Below, piece by piece: positions 789 to 16,437 of a stretch of 64,000 nt of DNA. A model generated the notes under the pieces. The model searched no databases and was not told the DNA's origin. It saw nothing but the letters and a program-made list of their open reading frames with translations. The position numbers and the translations under genes were made by a program. Within the stretch, counting starts at the first letter, position 1. Each line of letters starts with the position of its first letter. The DNA is from Mycoavidus sp. HKI (GTDB lineage: Bacteria; Pseudomonadota; Gammaproteobacteria; Burkholderiales; Burkholderiaceae): positions 186,001 through 250,000 of the forward strand of contig NZ_CP076444.2 of the NCBI RefSeq assembly GCF_020023735.2, in the 5' to 3' direction.

Positions 789-3095
789 ATGTCGACTCCA
801 TACAACAGTAAATTGCGCGACGCCGCGCTTGATTACCACGAATTTCCTGTCCCTGGAAAAATCGCTGTCACTCCTACCAAGCAAATGCTTAACCAGCGTG
901 ATCTGGCCCTGGCCTATTCGCCAGGAGTGGCCGCTGCGTGTGAAGAAATTCAAGCAAATCCACTGAATGCTGCGCGCTTTACAGCGCGCAGTAATCTGGT
1001 TGGGGTGGTGACGAATGGTACCGCCGTATTGGGGCTAGGCGATATAGGCCCGCTGGCGGCTAAGCCCGTGATGGAAGGTAAGGCGGTTTTGTTCAAAAAA
1101 TTTGCTGGGATTGATGTTTTTGATATTGAGATCAATGAAAAAGACCCCTTAAAATTGGTTGAGGTCATCGTTGCACTTGAACCGACTTTTGGCGGTATTA
1201 ATCTTGAAGATGTAAAAGCGCCAGATTGCTTTATTGTCGAGCGCGAATGCCGTAAGCGGATGAAAATCCCGGTTTTTCATGATGATCAACACGGTACTGC
1301 GATTGTGGTCTCGGCCGCGATTATCAACGCCCTTAAAGTGGTGGACAAAAAAATCACCGAGATTAAATTGGTCACTTCTGGTGCGGGTGCGGCCGCGCTT
1401 GCTTGTTTAGACCTGCTGGTAGACCTGGGTTTGCCGCTAAAAAATATTTGGGTGACTGATCTCGCTGGCGTGGTTTACCAAGGCCGCACGGAACTTATGG
1501 ATCCAGATAAAGCCCGCTTTGTGCAAGCTACCGAAGCGCGCACGTTGGCTGAAGTAATTGTGGATGCGGATGTTTTTCTTGGTTTGTCGGCAGCGGGCGT
1601 GCTACAACAAGAAATGGTCAAGCGCATGGCGCCGCAACCATTGATTATGGCGTTGGCTAATCCTACCCCAGAAATTTTGCCGGAATTGGCGCTGGCTGTA
1701 CGCCCTGATGCTATCTTGGCAACGGGCCGTACGGATTATCCCAATCAAGTGAACAATGTTCTCTGTTTTCCATTTATTTTTCGAGGGGCGCTTGACGTTG
1801 GCGCGACCACCATCACTCGTGAAATGGAAATTGCCGCAGTCGATGCGCTGGCTGAGCTCGCTCGGCAAGAACAAAGCGATATCGTGACCAGCGCTTATGG
1901 GATTCAAGACTTATCGTTTGGAGCGCAATATCTGATTCCAAAGCCGTTCGATCCGCGCTTAATTGTAAAAATTGCCCCTGCTGTAGCTCGGGCGGCAATG
2001 GCCGCAGGCGTGGCCACCCGGCCGATCGAGGATATGGATGCTTATCAGCAGCATTTGCAGCAATTTGTATACCATAGCGGCACGATTATGAAGCCGATCT
2101 TTGCGGTTGCTCGTAGCACGGCGGCAGACAAAAAACGTATTGTATTTTGTGAGGGCGAAGAAGAACGTATTCTGCGTGCGGTGCAAATCATTGTCGACGA
2201 AAAAATTGCCTATCCTATTTTAGTTGGCCGCCCAGCCGTCATTGAGCAACGGATTGCGCGCTATGGGTTGCGCTTAGTTCCTGGGCAAGATTGCAAGATT
2301 GTGAATCCGGAATATGACGAACGTTACCGCGATTACTGGCAGACTTATTATAAAAAGATGGCGCGCAAGGGCATTACCGAGCAGCTGGCAAAAGTTGAAA
2401 TGCGCCGGCGTACGACATTAATTGGCGCCATGCTGGTGCATAAAGGCGAAGCCGACGGTATGATTTGCGGCACCATTAGCACCACTCATCGTCATTTGCA
2501 TTTCATTGATCAGGTCATCGGCAAACGCCCAGAGTGTTCAGTGTATGCGGCAATGAACGGTTTAATTTTGCCCGGCCGGCAAATTTTCTTAGTGGATACA
2601 CACGTTAATGTTGATCCAACGCCTAGCGAGTTGGCAGAAATTACCCTCATGGCGGCAGAAGAAGTATCCCGTTTTGGCATTGAACCTAAGATTGCTCTGC
2701 TTTCGCACTCTAATTTTGGCTCAAGTAATGCGCCTTCTGCTCAGAAAATGCGTGAGGTATTGGCAATTTTGCGAGAACGAGCTCCCGGGCTTGATGTGGA
2801 TGGTGAGATGCATGGCGATTGCGCGCTCGATGAGCGTTTACGCCGAGAAATTTTGCCAGATTCGACTTTTAAAGGCGAGGCAAATCTATTGGTGCTGCCA
2901 AATATCGACGCCGCCAATATTTCATACAACCTGCTCAAAACCACAGCGGGTAACAATATTGCGATTGGCCCCATTTTGCTCGGAGCAGCCAAGCCAGTTC
3001 ATATTTTAACCGAGTCGGCTACGGTGCGGCGCATTATTAATATGGCGGCGCTGGTCGTGGCCGACGTGGTCGCGGCTAGCCGTGAAATGGGTTGA
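789..3095 (+). CDS. maeB: NADP-dependent malic enzyme with phosphotransacetylase-like C-terminal domain
   Basis: 768 residues, the normal length of the hybrid MaeB class. It oxidatively decarboxylates malate to pyruvate with NADP+, linking the TCA cycle to pyruvate and NADPH supply. The N-terminal malic domain (about residues 15-180) carries [12 protein letters not shown] and the EDVKAPDCF segment with the catalytic Lys. A Rossmann domain follows with [17 protein letters not shown] near residue 195. From about residue 430 to the end is a phosphate acetyl/butyryl-transferase-like domain ([15 protein letters not shown]), which is regulatory rather than catalytic in known MaeB proteins. The ATG at 789 fits the family start. 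It is followed by a possible terminator and a 278-base non-coding gap. Confidence 0.96.
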
Positions 3096-3170
3096 TATTG
3101 ATTCCAGCTGCCAATAACGTTACTCTTATGCTTTTAACGGTAATTGGAATTACATTTCATCTGTTTTTGC

Positions 3171-3206
3171 GAAGAGTCTGAACGCCGTAAGGTAAGACTT
3201 TTTTTC
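3171..3206 (+). terminator. Possible rho-independent terminator after maeB
   Basis: AGTCT (3175-3179) pairs with AGACT (3195-3199), and the stem can be extended outward by A-T and G-T pairs into the following T-run of seven. The loop is long (about 15 bases), so this is a weak candidate. The rest of the 3096-3373 gap shows no convincing gene. Confidence 0.35.
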
Positions 3207-3373
3207 CTTTAGGAAGAAGAGGATATCAAAGGTGAAAGCTTGCTCGATGAAATGCCGACGGCGCAAAAGAGCAATCTGATACACCTGTTTTTCAGTGCTT
3301 GATGCGCATGAATTGGCAACAATTCACCGCATAAGGATGAAATCGATATTCAGCGCATAATGGAATCAATGGT

Positions 3374-3934
3374 ATGAGCGACAATTTTATGGCGCACGGC
3401 ACGCATGCCGTGAGCGGCTTGTCCAGGCGCGACGCTAACCCCTTTCAATATATTTTGTCGAGCAGCAAGGGTGTCGCTTGTAGCGAACCCCTGTCTGATA
3501 AGGTCAATATGAGCCTTTTTAAGAATGTGCGCCCTAACATTGTGCAGTCAATTCGCGCATTCCGGGTGCTTGAGCTAGCGCGCGAAGCAGGGCAGCTTGG
3601 CCAGCATTTTTTGTACGCATTCTGTGCGGATGCTCAAACCAAAGCAGAGGTGCTGAGTACGATCACCACCTCATTTTTGCTGCCTAGGCAAGAGGGTAAA
3701 AATTATGACGCGCTGTATGACAATTTGACGGAATTAATTTATAAAGCTGGGCCGCAACCGGGCTTTGTGATTGTGCTCGAAGGCCTACCCGCGACGCAAA
3801 AATTTGACAAAGAAGCGCGTGAGACGCTGCTTGATGTATTTCGCGAAGCAACAGAATTTTGGGCTAAATGCGGTGTTGATTTTCGGGTCTTTTTCTCATT
3901 CGCTTTATCATCAGCCGCCCCAGCGTATAGCTAA
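3374..3934 (+). CDS. Barstar-family protein (barnase-inhibitor fold)
   Basis: 186 residues. The C-terminal two thirds match the barstar family: a conserved GQHFLYAFCADAQTKAEVL segment, then the hallmark GKNYDALYDNLTEL followed by GFVIVLEGLP. Classical barstar inhibits the RNase barnase by filling its active site. The Burkholderia relatives at this locus (between maeB and rsmE) are chromosomal and have no RNase partner next to them, and none is seen here, so the function is not settled. The first 45 residues are poorly conserved. An internal Met at residue 46 (MSLFKNVRPNIV) is a possible alternative start. The 3' end overlaps convergent rsmE by 24 bases. Confidence 0.85.
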   Translation: MSDNFMAHGTHAVSGLSRRDANPFQYILSSSKGVACSEPLSDKVNMSLFKNVRPNIVQSIRAFRVLELAREAGQLGQHFLYAFCADAQTKAEVLSTITTSFLLPRQEGKNYDALYDNLTELIYKAGPQPGFVIVLEGLPATQKFDKEARETLLDVFREATEFWAKCGVDFRVFFSFALSSAAPAYS

Positions 3935-4687
3935 ACCGGCCAATGCAGCAATGCCGGCTGTTTCGGTCCGTAGGATACGAGGCCCTAGAGAGAGTTCAAA
4001 AAAACCATAGGCGGTTGCTGCCTGTTCTTCCGCTGCAGTGAGGCCGCCTTCGGGACCGATAAGGAGAGTCACGGGTTCGGCAGGAGGCGTGACGGGCAGC
4101 GTCTGAAAGCCGCGCGTGGCGCGCGGTGATAGCATAAATCGGGTCGAATGATTGGCTGGCGCGGTTTGGGGCAATGTGCTGAGCCAGGTGGTGAAATCAA
4201 TCGGCGCATCAACGACGGGCAGTTGGTTGCGGCCGCATTGCTCGCAGGCGGCGCGCACTAAGGCTTGCCAGTGGTGATGACGACGCACGGCTCGTTCGCC
4301 AGCTAGCCGCACCACGCTTTTTGATGTAGTGATGGGCGCGATTCGGTGCACGCCCAATTCAACCGCTTTTTCAATCAGCCAATCCATTTTGTCGCCACTT
4401 GCAATCCCTTGCGCGAGCGTTAGCTGATAGGGCGGCTCTGTATTACGCAGAGCGCAGGTGTCGTGTGCGACTACTTGCGCGAGTAGCTGCTTTTTGTCGA
4501 TAGTCAACACCGTGGCGTTAAATTCTCCGCCCATGCCATTGAATAAAATAATTGGGTCGCCTGCGGTTAAGCGTAAGACACGCATATGCAGAGCGACATC
4601 GTTTGGCAAGGTGATTGATTCGCCAGCGATAAGCGGCATTGATACAAAGAAGCGAGGAACAGGCATGAGAGATCCAGTATTGTGCAC
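3911..4687 (-). CDS. rsmE: 16S rRNA (uracil1498-N3)-methyltransferase RsmE
   Basis: 258 residues, close to the usual 240-250. RsmE methylates N3 of U1498 in the 16S rRNA of the 30S subunit using S-adenosylmethionine. The N-terminal PUA-like domain (MPVPRFFVSMPLIAGESITL) is followed by a SPOUT fold with IAPITTSKSVVR near the middle and the knot signature LLIGPEGGLTAAEEQAA, then LGPRILRTETA at the C-terminus. All are diagnostic. It is transcribed away from the DUF1841 gene side and tail-to-tail with the barstar gene. The ATG at 4687 gives a few extra residues before the conserved MPVPRFF; starting at that Met is an alternative. Confidence 0.95.
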   Translation of the reverse strand: MHNTGSLMPVPRFFVSMPLIAGESITLPNDVALHMRVLRLTAGDPIILFNGMGGEFNATVLTIDKKQLLAQVVAHDTCALRNTEPPYQLTLAQGIASGDKMDWLIEKAVELGVHRIAPITTSKSVVRLAGERAVRRHHHWQALVRAACEQCGRNQLPVVDAPIDFTTWLSTLPQTAPANHSTRFMLSPRATRGFQTLPVTPPAEPVTLLIGPEGGLTAAEEQAATAYGFFELSLGPRILRTETAGIAALAGLAIRWGG

Positions 4688-4710
4688 TCGTGAGAGGAGG
4701 TCAAGCGTTT

Positions 4711-5136
4711 TTATGAGGCTCGCTGTTTAATACATGCAAGATAGGCGGCTGAATCTAGCGGCGTCTGGTTACGTTGTGCTTGCCATAATGTTTCACCGAG
4801 GCATTCCATAATCATATGGTGAGCTGCATGGCTTGTCCCCAATTTGGCGGCAAGCCGCTCATGCGCTGCGCGAATACCTGGAGGCTGATTGATCGATACC
4901 TGTTCGCTGATGGCGAGGTGCATCGATAAATGCAAAAATGGATTGGTTTGGCCTTGCTCTGGCAGATACACTTGTTCTTGTGCGTCAGGAGTCGAAAGCA
5001 GTTCATGATACTCTGGATGCTCGCTGATCCAGCTTGCTGCGATATTTTCGAGAGGCGTGAGGATGGCGCCTGCCTGCTGCTTGCGCCAGGTTTCGCAAAA
5101 AAATTGTCGGACTTCTTGTTGACTCGGATTAAACAT
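4711..5136 (-). CDS. DUF1841 family protein
   Basis: 141 residues starting MFNPSQQEVRQFFCETW, with the family pattern of the 'PLE..AA.WI..HPEYH' region and the His-rich LHLSMHLAISEQVSINQPPGIRAAHERLA. It ends AAHHMIMECLGETLWQAQRNQ. This family is conserved in beta- and gammaproteobacteria and has no assigned function. The clustered His residues suggest metal binding, but that is inference. It lies in the same direction as nth/rsxB and rsmE, 23 bases upstream of rsmE and 26 bases downstream of nth, so the four probably form one transcription unit. Confidence 0.85.
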   Translation of the reverse strand: MFNPSQQEVRQFFCETWRKQQAGAILTPLENIAASWISEHPEYHELLSTPDAQEQVYLPEQGQTNPFLHLSMHLAISEQVSINQPPGIRAAHERLAAKLGTSHAAHHMIMECLGETLWQAQRNQTPLDSAAYLACIKQRAS

Positions 5137-5162
5137 TGGCCTGTTCTATTCTGCTATGGAAA

Positions 5163-5870
5163 TCAATTTCGATTCTTGGTGACTAACTTTAACTTTACTC
5201 GAGGTTGCCGAGTTGGGGTCTTAAGTCCTAGATCCGGTGCGGGGGTTTTAGCTTTAAACTCGCATAGGGGTTCAATTACGCAATGCCAACATTCGGGACG
5301 ACGGGCTTTGCAGACATAACGGCCGTGCAAGATCAACCAATGATGAGCATCGTGCCGAAACTCTTTAGGCGTATATTTCTCGAGCGCCGCTTCAACGACC
5401 CGTACATCTTTGCCTGGTGCTAAGCCAGTACGGTTTGCCACCCGAAAAATATGCGTATCAACCGCAATCGTTGGCTGGCCAAAAGCCGTATTTAAAACCA
5501 CATTTGCAGTTTTTCGACCAACGCCAGGCAGCGATTCAAGCGCATCCCGATCGGCGGGAACCGTGCCAGAATAATGTTCAAGCAGCATTTTACAAGTTGT
5601 GATGAGGTTTTTTGCTTTGGTACGAAAAAGACCGATGGTCTTTATATAGTCGATCACACCTGCCTCGCCAAGTTCCAGTAAGGTTTGTGGTGTATTGGCA
5701 ACCTTAAACAGATGGCGGGTCGCTTTATTGACGGAAATATCCGTTGCCTGCGCAGAGAGCATAACTGCAATCAATAGTTCAAACGGTGTTTTATATTCAA
5801 GCTCAGTCGTCGGGTGCGGGTTCAGACTTTGCAGCGTCTCATATATTGCCCGGCGTTTGGTCACATTCAT
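5163..5870 (-). CDS. nth: Endonuclease III (DNA glycosylase/AP lyase)
   Basis: Base-excision repair enzyme that removes oxidised pyrimidines and nicks at the abasic site. The start is set at the ATG at 5870 (MNVTKRRAIYETL), which gives 235 residues and matches the family. The longer open frame to 6047 would run into rsxB and adds a basic tail not found in Nth. The helix-hairpin-helix SLPGVGRKTANVVLN carries the catalytic Lys, and the following FGQPTIAVDTHIFRV has the catalytic Asp. Four Cys near the C-terminus (CKARRPECWHCVIEPLCEF) form the [4Fe-4S] loop. It starts 8 bases after the rsxB stop, so the two are likely co-translated. This nth-rsxB pairing is common in Burkholderiales. Confidence 0.95.
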   Translation of the reverse strand: MNVTKRRAIYETLQSLNPHPTTELEYKTPFELLIAVMLSAQATDISVNKATRHLFKVANTPQTLLELGEAGVIDYIKTIGLFRTKAKNLITTCKMLLEHYSGTVPADRDALESLPGVGRKTANVVLNTAFGQPTIAVDTHIFRVANRTGLAPGKDVRVVEAALEKYTPKEFRHDAHHWLILHGRYVCKARRPECWHCVIEPLCEFKAKTPAPDLGLKTPTRQPRVKLKLVTKNRN

Positions 5871-5877
5871 AAATTTT

Positions 5878-6681
5878 TCACCGATTTTTTTGCTTGTTAT
5901 TCGAGGCCTCTTGGGGCCGGGCAGGGGTAGCAGGCTCGGTATTCTTTGGGCGAGTTTCTTGGATAGCCAATGTTTCCTTTTTTTGGCGTGCGCGCTCAAG
6001 TGCGGCTTGGATGATGGCGCGTTTCTTGGCAGCAGAGTCTTCGGCATTGTCCGCGCTGTGCGCAGATCCTGCCTGTGCTGGTTGACTGGTTAAATGGGCA
6101 GCAGCTTGGCGGGCGCTGATTCGTGTTTCGGTCTGGGCCTGTTCACGAGCTTTTCGAGCCTGTCGTAAATGATGGTGTGCGCGTGCTGCATCGGCGGCTT
6201 TCTGTGGCCACGCGCGCCAGCCGGTAGCGGTTCCCGTGATCGGCTGCATTGAAATGCAATCAACTGGGCAGGGGGCAACACATAGGTCGCAGCCAGTACA
6301 TAACGAAGTCACCACCGTATGCATTTGTTTGGGGGCTCCAATAATGGCATCGACAGGACAAGCCTGGATGCAGAGCGTGCAGCCGATACACAGGTTTTCA
6401 TCAATGATGGCCAACGGGCGAGGTCGTTCGGCGCCGTTGGCTGGATTTAACGGAATCACGGGCTTGCCTAATAATGAGGCAAGTCGTTGCACGCCTTCTA
6501 AGCCACCTGGCGGACATTGATTGTAATTTGCAGCGCCGTGTGCAATGGCTTCCGCATAAGGGCGGCAGCCTGCATAGCCGCATTTGGTGCACTGGGTTTG
6601 CGGCAGTAGATCTTCGATCGAATCGGCAAGGGTTTTGGAATAGACCACGGAAAAAAGTGAGCGAAAAAAATAATGATACAA
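5878..6681 (-). CDS. rsxB: RnfB/RsxB-type iron-sulfur protein
   Basis: Cytoplasmic-face [4Fe-4S] electron carrier of the RnfB/RsxB family. The N-terminal domain has the four-Cys motif [16 protein letters not shown]...CPPGG. Two ferredoxin clusters follow: [16 protein letters not shown] and [16 protein letters not shown]. The last third is an Ala/Gln/Arg-rich low-complexity tail. The frame opens with TTG at 6681. A GTG at 6648 (V-Y-S-K-T-L-A-D) lies closer to the usual family start and may be the true one; neither has a clear Shine-Dalgarno. No other rnf/rsx subunits occur in the window, as in other Burkholderiales where rsxB sits alone next to nth. Confidence 0.9.
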
Positions 6682-6854
6682 GGTATCAGCTTTGTGATTG
6701 AACTCAACTTAATATTTTATCTTGGATTTTTTGTCGTGGGGGTTTTGTAAGCTAGCGTGAATTCTGGGGTTTGAGGCTTCCTCTCGCTTAACCCTTTTAC
6801 TCCTTCTATTAACATATCCTGCACTGTCAGTTTAGTATACCAGGCTCACCTGAA

Positions 6855-6958
6855 CTTCATCATCCGCTCTGCGCGTCTCGCAGACGCTTGTCTGGTCATG
6901 ACTGCCCGAAGCGATCTGCGAACCGCTCGGCGAATACTCCACTACTCAGTGGTGTGCT
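6855..6958 (-). pseudogene. Fossil WD40 repeat unit
   Basis: Read on the minus strand this stretch encodes V-E-Y-S-P-S-G-S-Q-I-A-S-G-S-H-D and then, after a small deletion that breaks the frame, DNA nearly identical to the blade that reads RLWDAQSG in the WD40 genes at 10579 and 13822. It is a stranded piece of the same repeat family with no start, no usable frame and in opposite orientation. The rest of the gap 6682-7182 holds only the lanthipeptide promoter and short hairpins, and I see no other gene in it. Confidence 0.7.
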
Positions 6959-7061
6959 ACGCCAAGACGCACAAAAATTGCTACAACGGTAATTTGGATA
7001 AATTCCGCCGGTTTGGGCTTTTAGCCCCTAAGTGCAAAGTCGAATTGGTTGAAGATAGTCC

Positions 7062-7090
7062 TTGAAAAAATTGAATTCTTGATCTATAAA
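7062..7090 (+). promoter_or_regulatory. Sigma-70 type promoter for the lanthipeptide precursor
   Basis: TTGAAA at 7062-7067 and TATAAA at 7085-7090 with exactly 17 bases between them. Each box is one base off consensus. Transcription would begin near 7097 and leave a leader of about 85 bases before the precursor start at 7183. Confidence 0.6.
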
Positions 7091-7182
7091 TCCAAAATTG
7101 GTTGGGGGATATGTTTTTGAGGTTAATCTCTGACTAATGCCGTAGTTCTATTCCGTAGTTCTATTCTTATGAAAGGGGAAAA

Positions 7183-7323
7183 ATGATGCAACGCATTCTT
7201 GAACTTCAAGGGTTGTTGGATAACGCTACTGAGGAGAATATTGTAATCGGTGGCGGCGCACTTTTGGCAGAAGCAGGAGCTGCTGGCATAGGCTCAGAGA
7301 TAAGTCTTCTATTGTGCGACTAA
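7183..7323 (+). CDS. Class III lanthipeptide precursor peptide (LanA)
   Basis: A 46-codon gene with tandem ATG codons (7183 and 7186) behind a strong Shine-Dalgarno (AAAGGGGAA). Residues 4-12 (RILELQGLL) match the class III leader motif (I/L-x-L-Q) recognised by LanKC enzymes. A Gly-Gly-Gly at 23-25 could mark a leader boundary. The C-terminus GSEISLLLCD contains S38-x-x-S41-x-x-x-C45, the Ser-x2-Ser-x3-Cys pattern that class III enzymes turn into labionin or lanthionine, and S-L-L-L-C is the same string as in the RamS/SapB core. The class III LanKC gene lies 194 bases downstream on the same strand. I infer a product with one ring and a single trailing Asp. It is not in ordinary ORF calls because of its length. 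Confidence 0.85.
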   Translation: MMQRILELQGLLDNATEENIVIGGGALLAEAGAAGIGSEISLLLCD

Positions 7324-7360
7324 ATCCGTCTTTCCTTTGTTTTTTCTAAGTTAATTGCGT

Positions 7361-7429
7361 GGCCGGTTTGGTGGATAAGAGCTATGCCATCATACAAGGG
7401 GGAATGTCTATTACCTACCGAAACCGGCC
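7361..7429 (+). promoter_or_regulatory. Long hairpin between lanthipeptide precursor and LanKC gene
   Basis: GGCCGGTTTGGTGGATAA (7361-7378) can pair with TTACCTACCGAAACCGGCC (7411-7429), nearly perfectly over the first nine bases and with small bulges beyond. The loop is about 32 bases. No T-run follows, so it is more likely an mRNA processing, stabilising or partial attenuation element than a full terminator. This would suit making much precursor and little enzyme. Confidence 0.5.
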
Positions 7430-7517
7430 TGCATATGCACTGTTACTAAGCATTGGGCGGTTAAAAACAATCATGAAAGCTTGACAAAATTTCTATTCAA
7501 TACGGAGGATAGGGCGT

Positions 7518-10253
7518 ATGCCAGTTATACACGAAAGACGCATGGTATTCGAACTGAGTGATACACCCTTCTACGAAACGCCAGATCGATATAAAGCGAA
7601 TACATCGCATTATATTAATTTGGCAAAAACCTACCTCCCAGAGCGGTGGCGATCAGTTCACCGCGGTGTTTGGAATTACTGTTACCCCCCTAGTAGCACC
7701 ATACCTTCTCAAGGCTGGAAAATTCATCTGAGTGCAACACTCTACAATGCGCGCGCCGTCTTGAGTGCTGCTATACCAGCGCTGGTTGACATGCAGATGG
7801 CCTTTAAGTTCGCAGCTGACCGCACCATTCTTTCCCATATGACCAGTAAAAACTGGGGGCGCGGCGCAAGCGGAAAATTTATCACGGCTTATCCGAAAGA
7901 TGACAACGAATTTCGGGAAATCATTGAGCAGCTCTATACAGCGACCAAAGGCTATATTGGACCGTATATTTTGAGTGATCGCCGTTATAAGGATAGCGCC
8001 GTAGTCCATTACCGATATGGCGGGATGCAAAAAACGCAAATGCTCAATGAGCAAGGCGCACTCAAGGGATACATACTCAAACCATCTGGCGAACGTGTGG
8101 CTGATGAACGGGCACCGGTCTATCAGACGCCAGCATGGCTCGCCGACCCATTCCCTCAGAAAACACAAAACGAAGGAGAAGCAGGAACGCTCAAAGAAGG
8201 GCGCTATTTGATCAAAAAAGCCTTGCAATTTAAGAATTCTGGCGGCATTTATATTGCGACGGATTGCCTACATGACCGCGAAGTCTTGATCAAGGAAGCC
8301 AGAGCATGGATTGGCGGCTCAACGGCCGAGTCGGATGCCGTTGCCCTGCTTAAAAAAGAATACCGTATTCTAAAAATCATGAATGGTACGGGTTATGCGC
8401 CTATTGCTTACGACCTATTTCAAGATTGGGAAAATTGGTTTTTGGTCGAAGAGTATATCGATGGTAAAGATTTAAATAAATTGATGCAAAGTCAATCTAT
8501 TTTGTTGCGCAATCGTTATGACGAAAATGACATTCGCGATTTTCATCAAACTTTCTGCAAAATTTTTCTTCGCATTTCTCACCTAGTCGCTGAGTTCCAT
8601 CAGCGCGGTATTGCGTTATGTGATCTCTCTGCTGGTAACGTTCTGATTTCAGAAGATCTTGAACGGATTACCTTTATCGATTTTGAAGCGGCATGTCAGC
8701 CTGGCATTGACATGTTGACTGGCCTCAGAACGCCTGGCTATACGCCGCTCGATCAGGACGAACAGGTCAAAGCTGAATTCACTAGAGATTATTATGCGCT
8801 GGCGGCCATGATGTTGGCGTTCGCCTTTCCGGCGAATTTATTTTTTCGTCTCATACCCGAGCGCATTGGACAGATAGTTGAAGAACTCTTCGCTGATGCA
8901 TCATTTCCTGAAGAAATCACGCAGGCGGTAGTCGCTGCATTGTCTGCGAACCCAGAGCACCGCCCAACTGCATCTGAGATGCATGCCAAGCTCAAGTCAA
9001 CGAACTGGGACCACGCTGTCACCACTTCCCGCCCTACACCCATGCCAACGCGTAGTCATATTGATACGACCATTGACGGACTGGGCTCCTTCATTGAATC
9101 CCATGCCGATATTTCTCGTGATGATCGTCTATTTCCTTGCGATTACCGCGCGTTTGGAACAAATCCTTTAAGCCTTGGATGTGGCACGTACGGCACACTC
9201 TTTAGCCTGCACCGCGCTGGCTTGCCCATCAATCAAGAATGGCGTGATTGGGCTCGCCGACACCCCATCACGAACGAGCGCTATACGCCCGGTTTCTTGA
9301 TGGGCCAGGCGGGTATTGCATGGGCGCTTATCGAACTAAAGGATACAGAGCAGGCCAGTACACTGTTGCTGCAAGCGCGCTCGCACTCGCTATTTGATCG
9401 TTCTCACGGGCTCTTCGAAGGTCAAGCAGGCTGGGCATTCTCCGCACTCCGGCTATTTTTGGAGACACACGACCAACAGTTTCTAGATGCCTCCACCAGT
9501 GTGGTCGATGAAATACTTTCTCACGCACACACGGATGCCACACGTGGCCTATATTGGCCCTATACCGATGGCAAAGCGCATCTTGGTCTTGGCTACGGTG
9601 CATCTGGCATTGCGCTCGTATTGCTCTACTTAGGGTTGCTCACTAAGCGTGAGCATTATATTGAGGCTGGATTACGCGCGCTGCGTCATGACATTTCGTA
9701 CAGCCAAGACAAGCAAGACGGATATGGCACACGGGGTTGGTCATATACAGCAGATAAACCCTTTCCTACCTTGCCCTACTATATGTACGGGGCAGCAGGC
9801 ATAGGCAGTGTGCTGTTGCGCTATCAACAACTTGCTGGCATCGATGAATTTGATACCGCGCTTGAGGATATCTACGTCGCCACCGACTGTAGGTATTCAC
9901 TCGGATTTGGAAAAGTGATGGGGCTGGCCGGTATCACCGGTTTCCGCCTCGATGCCTATCATTACACCTCTCAGGAACGGCATATTGCCGCTGTGGCGAA
10001 GCTGCTCAAGGGCATTGAGATGTTCCGGGTGCAACGCGAGGAGGGTTTTGCCTATCCAAGCGGCACTTCGATAGACCGGATTTCATGCGATTTTGGGTAT
10101 GGTATTGGGGGCATTCTTGCATTGTTGGCACGCTTACGACAATGGACGCCCGACGAGCTGACGCTAGATCGCTATTTCATAGGTGATCGCCAAACCATGA
10201 GCAACAACATACATGTAGACCTCCTCCATGTTGCCGCACATGCAGGTGCGTAA
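7518..10253 (+). CDS. lanKC: Class III lanthionine synthetase LanKC
   Basis: 911 residues with the three-domain plan of class III synthetases, which phosphorylate Ser/Thr of a precursor, eliminate to dehydroamino acids and cyclise them with Cys. Residues about 1-225 are the N-terminal lyase-type region (PDRYKANTSHYINLAKTYLP, GWKIHLSATLYNARAVLS). A Ser/Thr-kinase domain spans about 230-480: invariant Lys in VLIKEAR (about 259), catalytic loop CDLSAGNVLI (Asp about 369, Asn about 374) and metal-binding FIDFE (Asp about 388). A LanC-like barrel covers about 540-905 with repeated Gly motifs (GQAGIAWAL, YGASGIALVL, YGAAGIGSVL, GYGIGGILAL) but without the Zn-binding Cys/Cys-His, which separates class III from class IV. 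The start has a clear GGAGG 9 bases upstream. Its 3' side abuts IS debris. Confidence 0.92.
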   Translation: MPVIHERRMVFELSDTPFYETPDRYKANTSHYINLAKTYLPERWRSVHRGVWNYCYPPSSTIPSQGWKIHLSATLYNARAVLSAAIPALVDMQMAFKFAADRTILSHMTSKNWGRGASGKFITAYPKDDNEFREIIEQLYTATKGYIGPYILSDRRYKDSAVVHYRYGGMQKTQMLNEQGALKGYILKPSGERVADERAPVYQTPAWLADPFPQKTQNEGEAGTLKEGRYLIKKALQFKNSGGIYIATDCLHDREVLIKEARAWIGGSTAESDAVALLKKEYRILKIMNGTGYAPIAYDLFQDWENWFLVEEYIDGKDLNKLMQSQSILLRNRYDENDIRDFHQTFCKIFLRISHLVAEFHQRGIALCDLSAGNVLISEDLERITFIDFEAACQPGIDMLTGLRTPGYTPLDQDEQVKAEFTRDYYALAAMMLAFAFPANLFFRLIPERIGQIVEELFADASFPEEITQAVVAALSANPEHRPTASEMHAKLKSTNWDHAVTTSRPTPMPTRSHIDTTIDGLGSFIESHADISRDDRLFPCDYRAFGTNPLSLGCGTYGTLFSLHRAGLPINQEWRDWARRHPITNERYTPGFLMGQAGIAWALIELKDTEQASTLLLQARSHSLFDRSHGLFEGQAGWAFSALRLFLETHDQQFLDASTSVVDEILSHAHTDATRGLYWPYTDGKAHLGLGYGASGIALVLLYLGLLTKREHYIEAGLRALRHDISYSQDKQDGYGTRGWSYTADKPFPTLPYYMYGAAGIGSVLLRYQQLAGIDEFDTALEDIYVATDCRYSLGFGKVMGLAGITGFRLDAYHYTSQERHIAAVAKLLKGIEMFRVQREEGFAYPSGTSIDRISCDFGYGIGGILALLARLRQWTPDELTLDRYFIGDRQTMSNNIHVDLLHVAAHAGA

Positions 10254-10274
10254 GGCAGGGCTTCGGCATGAAAT

Positions 10275-10350
10275 GATCAGCGGTCACGATAAATCTATAA
10301 TGACCGGTCACGGTGCTGAAATAGACGGTCACGATGCTCTGAAATACGCA
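10275..10350. repeat. Terminal-repeat array of an IS21-like element (relic end)
   Basis: Three spaced copies of a CGGTCACG-type box occur here. The outermost unit, CGGTCACGATGCTCTGAAA plus TACGCA, is at 10326-10350. The same sequence ends the 114-bp element at 13306-13419. Multiple subterminal repeats of this kind are usual at ends of IS21-family elements; the family assignment is my inference. The unit abuts the IS982 relic at exactly 10350/10351, so one element was inserted into the other. Confidence 0.5.
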
Positions 10351-10531
10351 CCGGAACTCAACAGGCGGTTGCTGGCTAGCGGGAAGCGCAAGCGCTTGGG
10401 GGCGACATATATCTCTTTAGCAGAGTTGATGACACTGGTGGTGCTTTTTCATCAAATACTGCCTTATGCCAAAAAAGCCAACATTGCCTTTACAGTGATC
10501 CTACACCTCTGCTCTTATCCCGAGCTGAGGT
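10351..10531 (+). pseudogene. IS982 relic with large internal deletion
   Basis: The translated start (PELNRRLLASGKRKRLGAT) and [13 protein letters not shown] match the N-terminal region of the intact IS982 transposase at 49990-50865. The sequence then jumps, near 10457, to the transposase C-terminus (ACTGCCTTATGCCAAA, coding CLMPNKP in the intact copy). It ends with CTTATCCCGAGCTGAGGT, which matches the IS982 terminal inverted repeat. About 600 bases of the middle are gone. The 5' end is cut by the IS21-like repeat array. The rest of the gap 10254-10578 is the IS21-like end plus about 45 bases of leader for the WD40 gene. Confidence 0.8.
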
Positions 10532-10578
10532 TAAATCTAGGTATGCTCTGCGCGTAACTTCAGTTATTTAACCTAAAG

Positions 10579-13326
10579 ATGTCTATGTCAGTTTATATTC
10601 CAAGCACTGCTATTCCGTCCTATTCTGTCGTACAAAAACCTCTAACGCCTTCATTATCTTCACTACCGGTTGAAATCCAAGAAGAAGTAGAAAGTCATCT
10701 GGACTCATCTGCCCGGCAGGCGCTCTTTGAAGCGTTGATTACGGTAACGCACCATGGCGAACCTATAGACTCACCTATCCTTAAATTGCACTTGTTGCTG
10801 CATAAGATTCCATCTAAATATCAACAAGCTCTGGCCAGATCAGATGTGAGCTTGCGGACATTTGCGTTGAATCAATTAAAGCTATGGGAATCGAGACAAC
10901 TCGCTCAAGTGGTAGAGGAAGCTAAATTATTTGAGCTATTGCGTCTTGTTGACGATCCAGCCGTATTTGGATTTTTGAGGGAAAAAATCCAACAAGCGCC
11001 GGTTTTAAAACAAAAACTGCTGCATTGGGTCGAACGTTCAAAAACAGAAGAAGTGCAAGCCATCGCGGCGAATGCGCTGACGATCTTGGTGAAAAGCGGT
11101 GTCCAGTTTAATGGAGAGAATTTAAGGGGAATCCGGGTTGCAGGGGCGGATCTGAGTTTTGGGGTATTCGATTCGGCGCAGTTGCAAGGGGCGGATTTGA
11201 GAAACGTCCATTTTCACAATAGCTGGCTGCGCGAAGCGAACTTAAGCGAGGCGCAGATGGCAGGGGTACAGTTTGGCGAATGGCTGTCTCTCCAGGAAGA
11301 GAGCGAGGTGTACTCCTGCGTGTATTCACCAGATGGGAAAACGTTCGCCTTTGGGCTTGGAAATGGCGAGATCAGCGTGTATGCGACTTCGAATTGGGAA
11401 AAAATCCACACCTTACAAGGTCATACCGAGCCTGTTATGAGCGTGGTGTATTCGCCGAACGGGCAGCAAATTGCCTCGGGCAATGCAGACAATACTGTGC
11501 GGCTGTGGGACGCACAAACCGGATCCCTCGCACACACCTTACAAGGGCATACCAACTCTGTTGTGAGCGTGGTGTATTCGCCCAGCGGGCAGCAGATCGC
11601 CTCGGCCAGTTCAGACATGACGGTGCGGCTGTGGGATGCGCAAACCGGGGAACCCGGCCCCACCTTACAAGGGCATAACTCTTCGGTTAGGAGCGTGGTG
11701 TATTCGCCCAGCGGCCAGCAGATTGCCTCGATCAGTTGGGATAAGGCGGTGCGATTGTGGGACGCGCAAACTGGTGCTCCCGGCCCCACTTTACAAGGGC
11801 ATACCTCCTCGGTTTGGAGCGTAGCGTATTCGCCCAGCGGTCAGCAGATCGCCTCGGGCAGTTGGGATAATACGGTGCGATTGTGGGACGCGCAAACTGG
11901 TGCTCCCGGCCCCACCTTACAAGGTCATACCGAGTCTGTTATGAGTGTGGTGTATTCGCCCAGCGGTCAGCAGATCGCCTCGGGCAGTGATGACCATACG
12001 GTGCGGCTGTGGAACACGCAAACCGGGGAACCCGGCCCCACCTTACAAGGGCATACTGGCCGTGTTAGTAGCGTGGTGTATTCGCCCAGCGGTCAGCAGA
12101 TCGCCTCGAGCAGTGAAGACCATACAGTGCGGCTGTGGGACGCGCAAACCGGAGTCCCCGGCCCCACCTTACGAGGGCATACCTACGCTATTAGTAGCGT
12201 GGTGTATTCGCCCAGCGGTCAGCAGATCGCCTCGGGTAGTGAGGGCCATACGGTGCGGCTGTGGGACGCGCAAACCAGAGCCACCGGCCCCATCTTACAA
12301 AGACATACCTCCCCTGTTAGTAGCGTGGTGTATTCACCCAGCGGTCAGCAGATCGCCTCGGGCAGTGAGGACCATACGGTGCGGCTGTGGGACGCGCACA
12401 CCGGAGCCCCTGGCCCCATCTTACGAGGGCATACCGCCTCGGTTTGGAGCGTAGCGTATTCGCCCAGCGGTCAGCAGATCGCTTCGGGCAGCCAGGACAA
12501 GAAGATGCGACTGTGGGACGCGCACACCGGAGCCCCTGGCCCTATCTTACGAGGGCATACCTACGCGGTTAGGAGCGTAGCGTATTCGCCCAGCGGTCAG
12601 CAGATCGCCTCCGGCAGTGTGGATAAGACGGTGCGGCTGTGGGACGCACAAACCGGAGCCCCCGGCCCCACCTTGCTAGGTCATACCCACCCTGTTTATA
12701 GCGTGGTGTATTCGCCTAGCGGCCAGCAGATCGCCTCCGGCAGTCGGGACAGGACGGTGCGGCTGTGGGACGCACAAACCGGAGCCCCCGGCCCCACCTT
12801 ACAAGGACATACCGACAGAGTTTGGAGCGTGGCGTATTCGCCCAGCGGTCAGCAGATCGCCTCGGGCAGTGTGGACAAGACGGTACGACTGTGGGATGCG
12901 CAAACCGGCACCCCCGGCCCCACCTTGCTAGGCCATACTCACTCTGTTTATAGCGTGGCGTATTCACCCAGCGGCCAGCAACTCGCCTCGAGCGGTGAAG
13001 ACCAAACGGTGCGGCTGTGGGGTGTGGCCTCCGGCCAGTGTTTATCGGTGCTGCGAGGTTTTCATGGAAGAGTCAATAGCGTCGCCTGGGAAACGACATC
13101 CAGTGGCACTTATTTGGTGACCGGCTGTGACGATAAATCTGTTCGCGTATGGCAGGTCATAGCAGAGAAAGATCGTCATCAGGTACGTCTGTGCTGGAGT
13201 TCGATGCCTGACAGACTGACCGTGTTGAATACCTTTATCCAGGACGTGCAAGGCTTAAGCTGCGTAAACAAAAAGCTTTTGACGCAACGTGGAGCCGCGG
13301 TTGAGTGCGTATTTCAGCGATCGTGA
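10579..13326 (+). CDS. F-box-like / pentapeptide / WD40 repeat protein (copy 1)
   Basis: 915 residues, not a recognised named gene. Residues about 28-60 (LPVEIQEEVESHLDSSARQAL) have the Leu-Pro-x-Glu-Ile...Leu spacing of an F-box-like helix. Residues 60-175 are helical. Residues 180-235 are pentapeptide-type repeats (A-D-L-S-F, A-D-L-R-N, A-N-L-S-E). From 244 to about 865 there are 15 WD40 units of 42 residues with the core VYSPSGQQIASGS and TVRLWDAQTG, the first and last degenerate. That is about two seven-bladed propellers. The final residues ECVFQRS come from a MITE-like element fused at 13306; the paralogue at 13822 instead ends LSDLA. There is no signal peptide. The role is unknown; scaffold or host-directed function is inference. 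Confidence 0.85.
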   Translation: MSMSVYIPSTAIPSYSVVQKPLTPSLSSLPVEIQEEVESHLDSSARQALFEALITVTHHGEPIDSPILKLHLLLHKIPSKYQQALARSDVSLRTFALNQLKLWESRQLAQVVEEAKLFELLRLVDDPAVFGFLREKIQQAPVLKQKLLHWVERSKTEEVQAIAANALTILVKSGVQFNGENLRGIRVAGADLSFGVFDSAQLQGADLRNVHFHNSWLREANLSEAQMAGVQFGEWLSLQEESEVYSCVYSPDGKTFAFGLGNGEISVYATSNWEKIHTLQGHTEPVMSVVYSPNGQQIASGNADNTVRLWDAQTGSLAHTLQGHTNSVVSVVYSPSGQQIASASSDMTVRLWDAQTGEPGPTLQGHNSSVRSVVYSPSGQQIASISWDKAVRLWDAQTGAPGPTLQGHTSSVWSVAYSPSGQQIASGSWDNTVRLWDAQTGAPGPTLQGHTESVMSVVYSPSGQQIASGSDDHTVRLWNTQTGEPGPTLQGHTGRVSSVVYSPSGQQIASSSEDHTVRLWDAQTGVPGPTLRGHTYAISSVVYSPSGQQIASGSEGHTVRLWDAQTRATGPILQRHTSPVSSVVYSPSGQQIASGSEDHTVRLWDAHTGAPGPILRGHTASVWSVAYSPSGQQIASGSQDKKMRLWDAHTGAPGPILRGHTYAVRSVAYSPSGQQIASGSVDKTVRLWDAQTGAPGPTLLGHTHPVYSVVYSPSGQQIASGSRDRTVRLWDAQTGAPGPTLQGHTDRVWSVAYSPSGQQIASGSVDKTVRLWDAQTGTPGPTLLGHTHSVYSVAYSPSGQQLASSGEDQTVRLWGVASGQCLSVLRGFHGRVNSVAWETTSSGTYLVTGCDDKSVRVWQVIAEKDRHQVRLCWSSMPDRLTVLNTFIQDVQGLSCVNKKLLTQRGAAVECVFQRS
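11308..13160 (+). repeat. WD40 repeat array, copy 1 (126-bp units)
   Basis: Fifteen tandem units of about 126 bases, one per 42-residue blade. Inner units are strongly alike at the DNA level, with the recurrent string CCCAGCGGTCAGCAGATCGC in most copies. Variation concentrates at the four to five codons between GHT and SVVYSP (for example TEPV, SSVR, TYAI, THPV) and at the residue pair before TVRLW. Confidence 0.9.
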
Positions 13327-13419
13327 CCGCCAGTTTCAGAGTTATCGTGACCGATAAAGTGATGCAAGCGAAGGTGTTAAGATTGTACATAAATCGGTCA
13401 CGATGCTCTGAAATACGCA
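13306..13419. mobile_element. 114-bp MITE-like element with IS21-type ends
   Basis: It starts TGCGTATTTCAGCGATCGTG and ends with the inverted partner (reverse complement begins TGCGTATTTCAGAGCATCGT). Each end is followed by a second GTGACCG-type box, as in the array at 10275-10350. There is no coding capacity. It sits over the last 7 codons of the first WD40 gene and supplies their sequence and stop codon. No clear target duplication is visible. Confidence 0.6.
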
Positions 13420-13591
13420 ACCTAACACGTTTAAAAATAACGTTAAGTTTTTTCTGAATAGTAGAGCGCAAAACGAAAGGGTTAAGATTATTGTAGATGT
13501 TTTTCAGAGCTGTTTTTTGTTGAGAGTTGCTGGCTGGATTTGCCAATAAACGTTGAACAGGGGTTTCTGATTTGGCATGCTTTTTCATCAT
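13420..13591 (-). pseudogene. C-terminal fragment of an integrase-type transposase
   Basis: The minus strand reads HAKSETPVQRLLANPASN, then KTALKNIYNNLNPFVLR and IQKKLNVIF. This is the typical tail of IS481/ISNCY-like integrase-core transposases ('TP-QRLL--P...L-PF-L...I--KL'). It is cut at 13419 by the MITE-like element and has a stop directly upstream in frame, with weaker traces in another frame to about 13640. The remainder of the gap to 13821 shows nothing else I can name. Family assignment is from motif memory only. Confidence 0.5.
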
Positions 13592-13821
13592 TGATAATTA
13601 TCCTTTCTTCGGTTACCAATGATGTGAGTCAACGTATTATTTTTTACCACTCTTGGGTTACTTTTAATGTGTGGCAACTCGAAGCCAATCACCGTCGGTG
13701 GTTTTGTTCAACTGTGTCGAAGAAAGCATATAAAATTCGACCGCTCACATCGTGGGTTGAAAGTAGCCCAGGCTGACTGGGATGATTTAAACCAAGCTTT
13801 TAAATAAATAAGAGAATCTTG

Positions 13822-16437
13822 ATGCTCAGTTCCATTTCGAATTCTGCCCTAACGCATTATCCAGCCACGCAAAAAACCGTCGCGTCTTTATTCCTCAAGC
13901 TTCCTTTAGAAATACAAGAAGAAATAGAAAAATCGCTAGATGGTTCGAGCCGGCATGCGCTGTTTAAAGCACTGACCACCGTGACTCGCGATGGAGAATC
14001 GATAGAAGCGCCCGCTTTGAAGCTACATCTGATCAAAGAGAGGACTCAAGCCCAATATCAAGGATCTCTCATCAGCTCAGACGAAGGGTTAAAGAAGTTT
14101 GCGTTGGGTCAATTAGAAACCTTATCGGACGCAGGGCAACTCGATAAGGTGGTGGAGAAATTGGCGTTTTTTGAGTTGGTATGCCTGCTTAATGCCCCCG
14201 AAGTATTCAGTTTTTTACGAGAAAAAATTCACCAAAATGCACAGCTCAAAGAGAAATTATTGAGCTGGGTGGAAAGGTCTAAAACAGAAAAGGTGCAGGC
14301 GATAGCGGCGAATGCGCTGACGTTGTTAGTGAAAACTGGCGTGCAATTCAATAGTCAAGACCTCAAAGGGATACGCGTGCCTGGGGCAGACTTAAGTTAT
14401 GGGATGTTTGATTCTGCGCAGTTGCAAGGAGCGGATTTAAGTCAAGTCAATTTTAGTAATAGTTGGCTGTGCCATGCGGATTTAAGCGCCGCCAAGATGG
14501 CTGGGGTGCGGTTTGGCGAATGGGCTTATCTCCAAGAAGGGAGTGCCGTGTATTCCTGCGCGTATTCACCGGATGGGAAAAACTGTGCGGTAGGGCTTAA
14601 TAACGGCACGATCAGCGTGTATACGACCTCGAATTGGAAAAAATCCTACACCTTACGCGGACATACCAACTCTGTTAATAGCGTGGTGTATTCGCCGAAC
14701 GGTGCGCAGATTGCCTCGGGAAGTGATGATAAGACGGTACGTCTGTGGGACGCGCACAGCGGAGCGGCTGTGCACACCTTACGCGGACATACCAACTCTG
14801 TTAATAGCGTGGTGTATTCGCCGAACGGTGCGCAGATTGCCTCGGGAAGTGATGATAAGATGGTACGTCTGTGGGACGCGCACAGCGGAGCGGCTGTGCA
14901 CACCTTACGCGGACATACCGCCTATGTTAGGAGCGTGGTGTATTCGCCGAGCGGTTCGCAGATCGCCTCGGCTAGTTATGACAAGACGGTGCGTCTGTGG
15001 GACGCGCAAAGCGGAGCGGCTGGGCACACCTTACGCGGACATACCGCCGTTATTAGGAGCGTGGTGTATTCGCCGAGCGGTTCGCAGATCGCCTCGGCCA
15101 GTCATGACAAGACGGTGCGTCTGTGGGACGCGCACAGCGGAGCGGCTGTGCACACCTTAGAAGAACATACAGACTCTGTTAATAGCGTGGTGTATTCGCC
15201 GAGCGGTGCGCAGATCGCCTCGGGGAGTTCTGACAAGACGGTGCGTTTGTGGGACGCGCACAGCGGAGCGGCTGGGCACACCTTACACGGACATACCGCC
15301 TATGTTATGGGCGTGGTGTATTCGCCGAGCGGTGCGCAGATCGCCTCGGGGAGTGGTGACAAGACGGTACGTCTGTGGGATACGCAAAGCGGAGCGGCTG
15401 GGCACACCTTAGAAGGACATACCTCCTATGTTTTTAGCGTGGTGTATTCACCCAACGGCCAGCAGATCGCCTCGGGGAGTGGTGACAAGATGGTGCGTCT
15501 GTGGGACGCACAAAGCGGAGCGGCTGGGCATGCCTTAGAAGGACATACCTCCTATGTTAGGAGCGTGGTGTATTCGCCGAGCGGTGCGCAGATCGCCTCG
15601 GGGAGTGAGGACAAGACGGTGCGTCTGTGGGATGCACAAAGCGGAGCGGCTGGACACATCTTACGCGGACATACAGACTCTGTTAATAGCGTGGTGTATT
15701 CGCCGAGCGGTGCGCAGATCGCCTCGGGGAGTTCTGACAAGACGGTGCGTTTGTGGGACGCGCACAGCGGAGCGGCTGGGCACACCTTAGAAGGACATAC
15801 CGACCCTGTTAGTAGCGTGGTGTATTCGCCGAGCGGTGCGCAGATCGCCTCGGGGAGTTCTGACAAGACGGTGCGTCTGTGGGATGCACAAAGCGGAGCG
15901 GCTGGACACATCTTACGCGGACATACCGCCGTTATTAGGAGCGTGGTGTATTCGCCGAGCGGTGAGCAGATCGCCTCGGGGAGTGGTGACAAGACGGTGC
16001 GGCTGTGGGACGCGCACAGCGGAGCGGCTGTGCACACCTTAGAAGGACATACCGACCCTGTTAGGAGCGTGGTGTATTCGCCAAGCGGTGAGCAGATCGC
16101 CTCGGGGAGTTTAGACCAGACAGTGCGTCTGTGGGAGGTCGCTTCGGGTGAGTGTCTAAGCGTAATTCAAGATTTTGCCGAGGCGGTCTATAGTGTAGCC
16201 TGGAAAGCGACGCCGGAGGGTTCCTATCTGTTGGCTGGCAGTGGCGATAAGCTGGTTCGGCAGTGGGAGTTGATAGAAAGGGTGGATGGAGTTCATGCGC
16301 ACCTGCGTTGGATGTCACCACCGGATCATAAGCTGATGGTGGAAGATACGTTAGTGGAAGGCGTGGCTGGGTTAAGCGAAATGAATCTAACGCTGTTGAA
16401 GCAACGAGGCGCTGCCGTCTTGTCGGATTTAGCGTGA
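13822..16437 (+). CDS. F-box-like / pentapeptide / WD40 repeat protein (copy 2)
   Basis: 871 residues from the ATG at 13822; a TTG at 13819 is in frame but the ATG is preferred. It is a paralogue of the gene at 10579 with the same order: F-box-like LPLEIQEEIEKSLDGSSRHAL (about residues 28-50), a helical region, pentapeptide repeats (GADLSYGMFDSAQLQGADL), then 14 WD40 units, which would make exactly two seven-bladed propellers. Unit consensus is VYSPSGAQIASGS / DKTVRLWDAQSGAAGHTL. It ends cleanly with LLKQRGAAVLSDLA, so this copy shows the original C-terminus that copy 1 lost. Two adjacent units near 14660-14900 are almost identical, pointing to recent duplication. The function is unknown; no catalytic domain is present. 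Confidence 0.85.
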   Translation: MLSSISNSALTHYPATQKTVASLFLKLPLEIQEEIEKSLDGSSRHALFKALTTVTRDGESIEAPALKLHLIKERTQAQYQGSLISSDEGLKKFALGQLETLSDAGQLDKVVEKLAFFELVCLLNAPEVFSFLREKIHQNAQLKEKLLSWVERSKTEKVQAIAANALTLLVKTGVQFNSQDLKGIRVPGADLSYGMFDSAQLQGADLSQVNFSNSWLCHADLSAAKMAGVRFGEWAYLQEGSAVYSCAYSPDGKNCAVGLNNGTISVYTTSNWKKSYTLRGHTNSVNSVVYSPNGAQIASGSDDKTVRLWDAHSGAAVHTLRGHTNSVNSVVYSPNGAQIASGSDDKMVRLWDAHSGAAVHTLRGHTAYVRSVVYSPSGSQIASASYDKTVRLWDAQSGAAGHTLRGHTAVIRSVVYSPSGSQIASASHDKTVRLWDAHSGAAVHTLEEHTDSVNSVVYSPSGAQIASGSSDKTVRLWDAHSGAAGHTLHGHTAYVMGVVYSPSGAQIASGSGDKTVRLWDTQSGAAGHTLEGHTSYVFSVVYSPNGQQIASGSGDKMVRLWDAQSGAAGHALEGHTSYVRSVVYSPSGAQIASGSEDKTVRLWDAQSGAAGHILRGHTDSVNSVVYSPSGAQIASGSSDKTVRLWDAHSGAAGHTLEGHTDPVSSVVYSPSGAQIASGSSDKTVRLWDAQSGAAGHILRGHTAVIRSVVYSPSGEQIASGSGDKTVRLWDAHSGAAVHTLEGHTDPVRSVVYSPSGEQIASGSLDQTVRLWEVASGECLSVIQDFAEAVYSVAWKATPEGSYLLAGSGDKLVRQWELIERVDGVHAHLRWMSPPDHKLMVEDTLVEGVAGLSEMNLTLLKQRGAAVLSDLA
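14544..16270 (+). repeat. WD40 repeat array, copy 2 (126-bp units)
   Basis: Fourteen units of about 126 bases. Several pairs are near-identical, including the units beginning TNSVNS (twice in a row), TDSVNS (twice) and TAVIRS (twice). The unit sequence differs from copy 1 at fixed places (SGAAGH against TGAPGP), so units within a gene have been homogenised separately in the two genes. Confidence 0.9.

Follow-up and report, generated by a model that had tools for sequence, protein, structure and literature searches.

The locus described here raises the question whether two neighbouring frames in a stretch of the Mycoavidus sp. HKI genome encode the precursor and the enzyme of a class III lanthipeptide, and what such a peptide could do for a probably endofungal bacterium. 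The stretch, called the window throughout, comprises 64,000 nucleotides of contig NZ_CP076444.2, and positions are those of the window unless a genome coordinate (C1) is given. As read from the open reading frames, both frames lie on the + strand, as do all features of the pair given below: one of 46 residues at 7183-7323 and, after an intergenic distance of 194 bases, one of 911 residues at 7518-10253. They are located where an initial annotation had placed them, a short frame directly upstream of a three-domain LanKC synthetase, and its assignment to a class III lanthipeptide locus of a probable endofungal member of the Burkholderiaceae is supported by a LanKC equivalog, by the domains and by a precursor family. 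Judging from the sequence, we consider it very likely that 7183-10253 holds a true LanA-LanKC pair of class III, whose predicted product is a one-ring peptide, a confidence that does not extend to the function of the peptide. What is new here is the precursor family and its gene-poor setting. The class of the enzyme is ordinary, and the type had been recognised before, as a LanKC relative from Mycoavidus sp. SF9855 already carries the NCBI name of class III LanKC.

The product of lanKC scores above the cut-off of the NCBI class III equivalog NF038151 (702.9 versus 575 bits) and below that of the class IV LanL equivalog NF038150 (518.4 versus 650 bits), and its nearest solved structures are the class III LanKC entries 8sao, 8sap and 8sam in the PDB (E about 8e-73 to 9e-73). 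A Shine-Dalgarno-like GGAGG precedes the gene at 7504-7508. All three domains are matched: a lyase domain, RamC_N (PF25816, 8.1e-62; residues 35-219, 7620..8174), a kinase domain (PF00069, 1.3e-9; the Pfam stretch covers residues 277-489, 8346..8984) and a LanC-like cyclase domain, LANC_like (PF05147, 6.8e-13; residues 587-875, 9276..10142).

For comparison, a contig scan with an alignment found LanKC relatives encoded in 319 of 331 stretches, the best 80 of which were kept as loci; a first scan with a single protein query had given no confirmed match. The LanKCs of 74 of these 80 loci (one locus without a candidate frame and five with frames shorter than 750 residues were left out) were aligned with the window protein and with 30 relatives taken from the 120 listed in the database. 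In the resulting 105 rows, K68, H70, R115, K120 and R166 of the lyase domain and D369, N374 and D388 of the kinase domain are invariant, and the K259 column has Lys in 99 rows and Arg in six; we take these columns to be catalytic, their roles being putative. The cyclase domain was said to have no zinc ligands, and this is confirmed: the former ligand positions are occupied by M756, V800 and M801, by a hand count in the alignment with ThurKC that the 105-row alignment bears out. Since the eight Streptomyces rows printed from that alignment have Cys, Cys and His at these columns, the alignment reveals zinc ligands when they are present. Asp667 of ThurKC aligns with Y693 of the window protein, in a column where 51 of the 105 rows have His and 25 have Tyr. 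Nucleotide-dependent dehydration and ring formation are predicted for such an enzyme.

The counterpart represented by these solved structures (8sam/8sao/8sap) is ThurKC, which acts on ThurA in Bacillus thuringiensis. According to passages of PMC10604976, it is likewise a three-domain, metal-free LanKC used with a LELQ-type leader, whose binding depends critically on an LELQL motif. It differs from the window system in having seven precursors that are nearly identical and undergo up to 11 dehydrations, and Ser726, Phe770 and Asp771 in place of zinc ligands (S/F/D versus M/V/M in the window).

The upstream frame has an LxLQ leader motif adjoining LanKC and a core of the form S/T-x2-S/T-x2-5-C, two features expected of a class III precursor. 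Six further database clusters encode peptides that are 75-84% identical to it, so that the family comprises seven protein clusters, all of which share the MQRILELQGLLD leader start and the C-terminal S-x-x-S-x-x-x-C. Because six clusters at this level of identity keep the leader start and the S/S/C triad, the frame is not a chance one. A repeat search of the same database with the family alignment returned the same seven clusters and none more, and these may be close kin. Invariant across the seven are M2-D13, which are the 12 residues of the leader start, T16, E18, N19, I22, G23, G24, A26-A29, S38, S41, L43 and C45, with variable positions in between. They include the ILELQ recognition motif at 7195..7209, the IGGGALLA block of residues 22-29 at 7246..7269, in which only G25 varies (Ser in one member), and the ring motif S38-x-x-S41-x-x-x-C45 (SEISLLLC) at 7294..7317, for which one lanthionine or labionin is predicted. 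Cys45 is the single Cys of the window precursor, and a single Cys together with the pair of ring Ser residues is found in all seven members. The arrangement of the genes is normal for class III, since 59 of the 74 loci examined have a peptide with LxLQ and a ring motif no more than 2.5 kb from LanKC.

The 46-residue gene with ILELQ and SEISLLLC directly upstream of LanKC is therefore confirmed as first annotated, with a start that is probably one codon later. Of the six relatives, five start with MQRILELQ, level with Met2 of the window frame, and the frame of the sixth extends further upstream; the true start is therefore probably the ATG at 7186, giving a peptide of 45 residues; the ribosome-binding-site-like AAAGGGGA at 7172..7179 would also be better spaced for this ATG. 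The expectation that so short a gene would escape gene callers and be easily missed did not hold, as its relatives sit in a database of predicted proteins. The initial annotation had named loss of the frame in related genomes that keep LanKC as a refutation. No such loss was found: the frame recurs in six other clusters, and its linkage to LanKC is known in the window genome only. No second copy of the precursor was found in the window genome, and viral contigs gave no confirmed precursor relative.

What sets the family apart is the distance between leader motif and ring. From the Gln of LxLQ to the first Ser or Thr of the ring motif there are 28 residues in the window peptide and 28-31 in the seven members, compared with 11-20 residues in 46 of the 47 other loci whose precursor lies upstream; the remaining one, the non-proteobacterial L075, is doubtful and has 27. 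These 47, out of 74 loci, have an LxLQ plus S/T-x2-S/T-x2-5-C peptide at most 1.5 kb upstream of LanKC, and were picked by LanKC similarity and not randomly. The conserved IGG(G/S)ALLA block sits in the extra length. In the ThurKC structure, as passages of PMC10604976 describe it, the leader residues in density omit the last ten of the leader, and the block is distant from LxLQ; its conservation is therefore not obviously due to enzyme binding. Possible roles for it are to direct cleavage or to belong to the product itself.

One form of the first possibility is that the leader is cut between IGG and GALLA, in the manner of class II leaders, so that the mature peptide would begin at Gly25 and be exported by a peptidase-containing ATP-binding cassette (ABC) transporter. 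IGG is invariant in all seven members, and double-glycine leaders are common in other classes of lanthipeptides and of ribosomally synthesised and post-translationally modified peptides, as stated in a portion of PMC7268733. However, the C39 peptidase domain PF03412 has no match anywhere in the genome, while the same search matches 8 of 14 control genomes, and the maturation of published class III peptides relies on other proteases (passages of PMC8960859). We have rejected the C39 route for want of the domain in this genome and regard such a cut as very improbable.

The SLLLC at the end of the ring motif, shared with the RamS (SapB) core, had tentatively been taken to suggest a morphogenetic or surfactant-type peptide and not a classical antibiotic. 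With true kinship to SapB/RamS, the window peptide would be a RamS homologue and a surfactant that helps hyphae rise. The peptide does share the class and the S-x-x-S-L-L-L-C ring motif with the SapB/RamS-RamC and AmfS-AmfT systems of Streptomyces, as judged by the RamS-like peptides of L087 and L093, and SLLLC, extended to SLLLCGD in the family member P0123, resembles the cores of these two. It also gives a sub-threshold match to the RamS model PF19402 (17.9 versus 24.3 bits), and the SapB/AmfS model NF033212 matches six of the seven family members weakly (E <= 0.1, best E 0.00049); moreover, hydrophobicity matters for activity of this sort in durhapeptin (passages of PMC13380574). Yet against NF033212, with a cut-off of 25 bits, the window peptide scores 16.9 bits and the RamS-like controls of L087 and L093 score 63.4 and 58.1. 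SLLLC occurs in only two of the 59 loci with a detectable precursor, out of 74 examined, namely L087 and L093, whose RamS-like peptides are encoded downstream of LanKCs from a distant clade, whereas the window precursor lies upstream. In the tree described below, these two fall in a starred actinobacterial group of nine rows and the window LanKC in another group.

SapB/RamS and AmfS loci carry ABC exporter genes. Two ring motifs with adjacent ABC exporter genes would mark a SapB system; the window peptide has one motif and a long spacer, and no ABC-exporter match was found from 1518 to 16253. The likely producer is, moreover, a Gram-negative endosymbiont, a kind of bacterium that raises no aerial hyphae. 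As the RamS-linked LanKCs belong to a distant clade, only one ring is predicted here and the two genes stand in the reverse order, we read SLLLC as convergence or as a very old shared motif. Homology to RamS is rejected on the scores, the LanKC clade and the motif count, a faint likeness remains, and a morphogen of the SapB type is highly unlikely.

Among the relatives of the enzyme, P0001 (in a cluster with 13 member sequences) is 93% identical to the window LanKC, the nearest named one (P0002, from Mycoavidus sp. SF9855) 67%, and P0003 and P0004 50-51%. A tree of 95 rows was made by a quick method, with the Shimodaira-Hasegawa-like approximate likelihood ratio test (SH-aLRT), no bootstrap and a midpoint root. 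In it, these proteins and P0005, a long branch whose placement is unsure, form a group with support 100 and a partly open inner order. A wider group (support 93, drawn open) adds five proteobacterial LanKCs (L016, L018, L020, L022 and L034) as their own clade; the LanKCs of other Oxalobacteraceae, Stenotrophomonas and Luteibacter and the actinobacterial group of L087 and L093 branch elsewhere. With SF9855 as the nearest named source, a genome of 2.25 Mb and same-genus genomes of 1.9 and 2.8 Mb, the earlier description of the genome as betaproteobacterial and probably endosymbiotic fits.

The initial annotation further stressed that class III systems are best known from Actinobacteria and Firmicutes. 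As a statement about phyla this overstates the rarity, because LanKC loci with LxLQ precursors are found in Duganella, Janthinobacterium, Massilia, Lysobacter, Luteibacter and Stenotrophomonas, and class III clusters have been published for Lysobacter (passages of PMC11451712) and for the endohyphal Luteibacter mycovicinus (passages of PMC11165876). Within its own family the system is rare indeed: among 398 genomes of Burkholderiaceae, only the window genome passes the LanKC cut-off. At E <= 0.001, 310 of the 398 match the LanKC model; apart from two places in the window genome, none of the matches listed exceeds 85.8 bits, and it is the kinase part that they cover. On plasmids, 84 records carry LanKC relatives, all below 60% identity. 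Compared with the proteobacterial loci (among L016-L076), which mostly have an LxLQ precursor upstream as in the window (none was found by pattern at L049 and L068), the window differs in its surroundings, in its spacer (at most 20 residues in those loci) and in the enzyme itself, to which their LanKCs are 30-37% identical.

Several findings weigh against our reading of the locus as a real and working pair. Expression and modification of the peptide are, at this stage, predictions from the genes. The window peptide falls below all curated class III precursor models (16.9 versus 25, 14.1 versus 30 and 13.3 versus 22 bits); this is weak evidence, since three of eight non-RamS control precursors also pass none of them, while five pass at least one. 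The two database searches for the precursor tied none to the SF9855 genome, whose LanKC is the nearest named relative. Two same-genus genomes have neither LanKC nor precursor, which makes the locus dispensable in the genus. The absence of C39 peptidases noted above belongs here, as does a pair of neighbouring M16 protease genes elsewhere in the genome, a candidate for leader removal, which is equally present in both LanKC-free same-genus genomes. No ABC-exporter match was found at E <= 1e-8 within 6 kb of the locus (1518-16253). Finally, the genome holds a truncated second LanKC fragment at C1:7020-8213, with 85% identity over residues 363-760.

Much of this evidence would also suit a decaying remnant, that is, a full cluster, once inherited or acquired, that has lost its exporter and protease and now produces nothing or nothing that is exported. 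The truncated copy, the absence of the locus from the two same-genus genomes, the debris of WD40 repeats adjoining it, the small genome (2.25 Mb) and the lack of an ABC-exporter match favour decay. The exporter search used as queries three ABC exporters from the LanKC loci L018, L026 and L034 and one MacB-like protein against all 80 loci. It gave ABC matches in 51 of the 80, in 40 of the 61 loci of at least 12 kb and in all 23 loci of Pseudomonadota, hand-picked by their titles. The last figure is an upper bound for dedicated exporters, since the search also catches unrelated ABC genes; exporter domains directly downstream were confirmed for three loci only. Besides their ABC matches, seven of the 80 loci (L026, L030, L031, L044, L049, L055 and L076, from Oxalobacteraceae, Stenotrophomonas and Dyella) have matches to MacB/FtsX-type permeases. 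On the other side, 29 of the 80 LanKC loci, some of them short, also have no ABC match, and its absence alone is therefore not a sign of decay. Both window frames are intact, the precursor motifs are kept across seven clusters, and a LanKC that is 93% identical recurs in a cluster with 13 sequences.

The divergence of the two LanKC copies also speaks against decay of the intact one. Over 378 codons they differ at 25 first, 21 second and 62 third positions, with nonsynonymous and synonymous distances (dN and dS) of 0.055 and 0.278 by NG86 and of 0.066 and 0.186 by YN00. As the differences are mainly at third positions, the divergence fits past purifying selection, though one copy is now broken. 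We regard decay as unlikely. By reading of the translations in its region (L107, C1:3000-13000), the second copy is flanked by a gyrB-like gene on one side and by P450 and polyketide-type genes on the other, and the opposite strand carries a transposase-like frame.

A relocated exporter was also considered. Elsewhere in the genome there are seven PF00664 matches, none of which stands out as a relocated LanKC exporter. The best of those that lack a close counterpart in the same-genus genomes, at C1:2032709-2033551, was dropped, as its translation looks Atm1-like and it lies beside genes resembling those of F420 biosynthesis. That region (L139, C1:2026000-2041000), with its F420-like genes and Atm1-like ABC transporter, is an observation in its own right, as read from the translations; the transporter has no close counterpart among the PF00664 loci of the two same-genus genomes.

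If the pair is functional, LanKC would bind the ILELQ portion of the leader, its kinase domain would phosphorylate Ser38 and Ser41, and its lyase domain would strip the phosphates to leave two dehydroalanines. Cys45 would then attack without zinc to close a single C-terminal ring, either a lanthionine with one dehydroalanine remaining or a labionin consuming both. The leader would be cut off by a protease encoded elsewhere. A candidate would be the M16 pair at C1:2095242-2097172, though as a housekeeping pair: its presence in two genomes without LanKC means that it is no specific partner, and we have rejected it in that role. A route through a prolyl oligopeptidase was also rejected, the genome giving one partial S9 match at 23.4 bits (cut-off 22.6). 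The mature peptide would probably be a linear segment, hydrophobic, acidic and rich in Gly and Ala, including the IGGGALLA block and capped by the ring.

Published precedents for a class III peptide with a single ring motif, and for M16B proteases encoded outside the cluster, are described in passages of PMC8960859. Among them are the paenithopeptins and bacinapeptins (Pre_24 group), which resemble the window system in one S-x2-S-x2-5-C motif, a LanKC, proteases mostly outside the cluster and an M16B pair elsewhere. They come from Bacillus and Paenibacillus and are likened here by motif and not by precursor sequence; the window family differs in its spacer of 28-31 residues with IGG(G/S)ALLA.

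What the peptide would do is a more tentative matter. From IGG on, the seven members have a grand average of hydropathy (GRAVY) of 0.46 to 1.46 and a net charge of -2 to -4. The hydrophobicity would suit an antibacterial class III lanthipeptide directed at competing bacteria, as opposed to a host-directed or surface-active symbiosis factor, and many lanthipeptides are antibacterial. The negative charge, however, is unlike that of typical lantibiotics, which are cationic; there is no nearby ABC-exporter match, and no immunity gene was recognised among the scanned neighbours, no dedicated immunity-gene search having been made. An antibacterial role seems unlikely. We suppose that the targets of the peptide would be membranes or surfaces, within the fungal host or near it. 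In its fullest form, this proposal is of a new lanthipeptide type, so far confined to Mycoavidus-like endofungal bacteria and their kin, in which one ring caps an IGG(G/S)ALLA segment and which, having no dedicated exporter, would serve as a symbiosis factor inside the fungus, acting there on membranes, whether bacterial or the host's own. Taken as a whole it is speculative, and we hold it to be unlikely, if slightly less so than the antibacterial role or decay.

Upstream of the pair, on the opposite strand, domain names indicate genes for an rnfB-like ferredoxin, endonuclease III, a DUF1841 protein and an RNA methyltransferase, and a Barstar-family protein (PF01337) is encoded at 3374-3934. 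Beside the lanthipeptide genes, two large proteins at 10579-13326 and 13819-16437 have many near-identical WD40 repeats, the first by Pfam and the second by its translation. A WD40-repeat remnant lies directly upstream of the precursor at 6863-6942 on the - strand; a search with 6700-7530 found 88 further matching places in the genome, 87 of them through this remnant, and a repeat-driven rearrangement at the locus is suggested. Between precursor and lanKC, an inverted repeat at 7361..7429 (GGCCGGTTT...AAACCGGCC) looked like a possible attenuator, which was rejected because the intergenic region (7324-7517) does not fold significantly better than shuffled sequence (z -1.45; 19 of 200 shuffles do equally well). 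A promoter scan gave one site against a shuffle mean of 6.1, and a terminator scan gave four against 3.7.

As for earlier reports, a search of titles and abstract openings returned no class III lanthipeptide in Mycoavidus, though a prior mention elsewhere is possible. The sole match for Mycoavidus together with lanthipeptide, PMC11165876, has Mycoavidus only in its reference list, as far as the passages considered go. In passages of PMC5877345, a table appears to score lantibiotic biosynthesis as absent, absent and present for B1-EB, AG77 and B. rhizoxinica, with the column order deduced from the rhizoxin row; it would accordingly be missing from M. cysteinexigens B1-EB (2,795,004 bp) and AG77.

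In the literature passages we considered, class III peptides have no assigned role in fungal endosymbiosis. With two genes and a single predicted ring, the system could be made and solved in E. coli, and its conserved spacer poses the question whether this segment belongs to the leader, marks the cut site or ends up in the product. Production of the peptide in the host, if it occurs, would add a ribosomal candidate to the nonribosomal peptide synthetase and polyketide products already known from these symbionts, as portions of PMC12306442 describe them.

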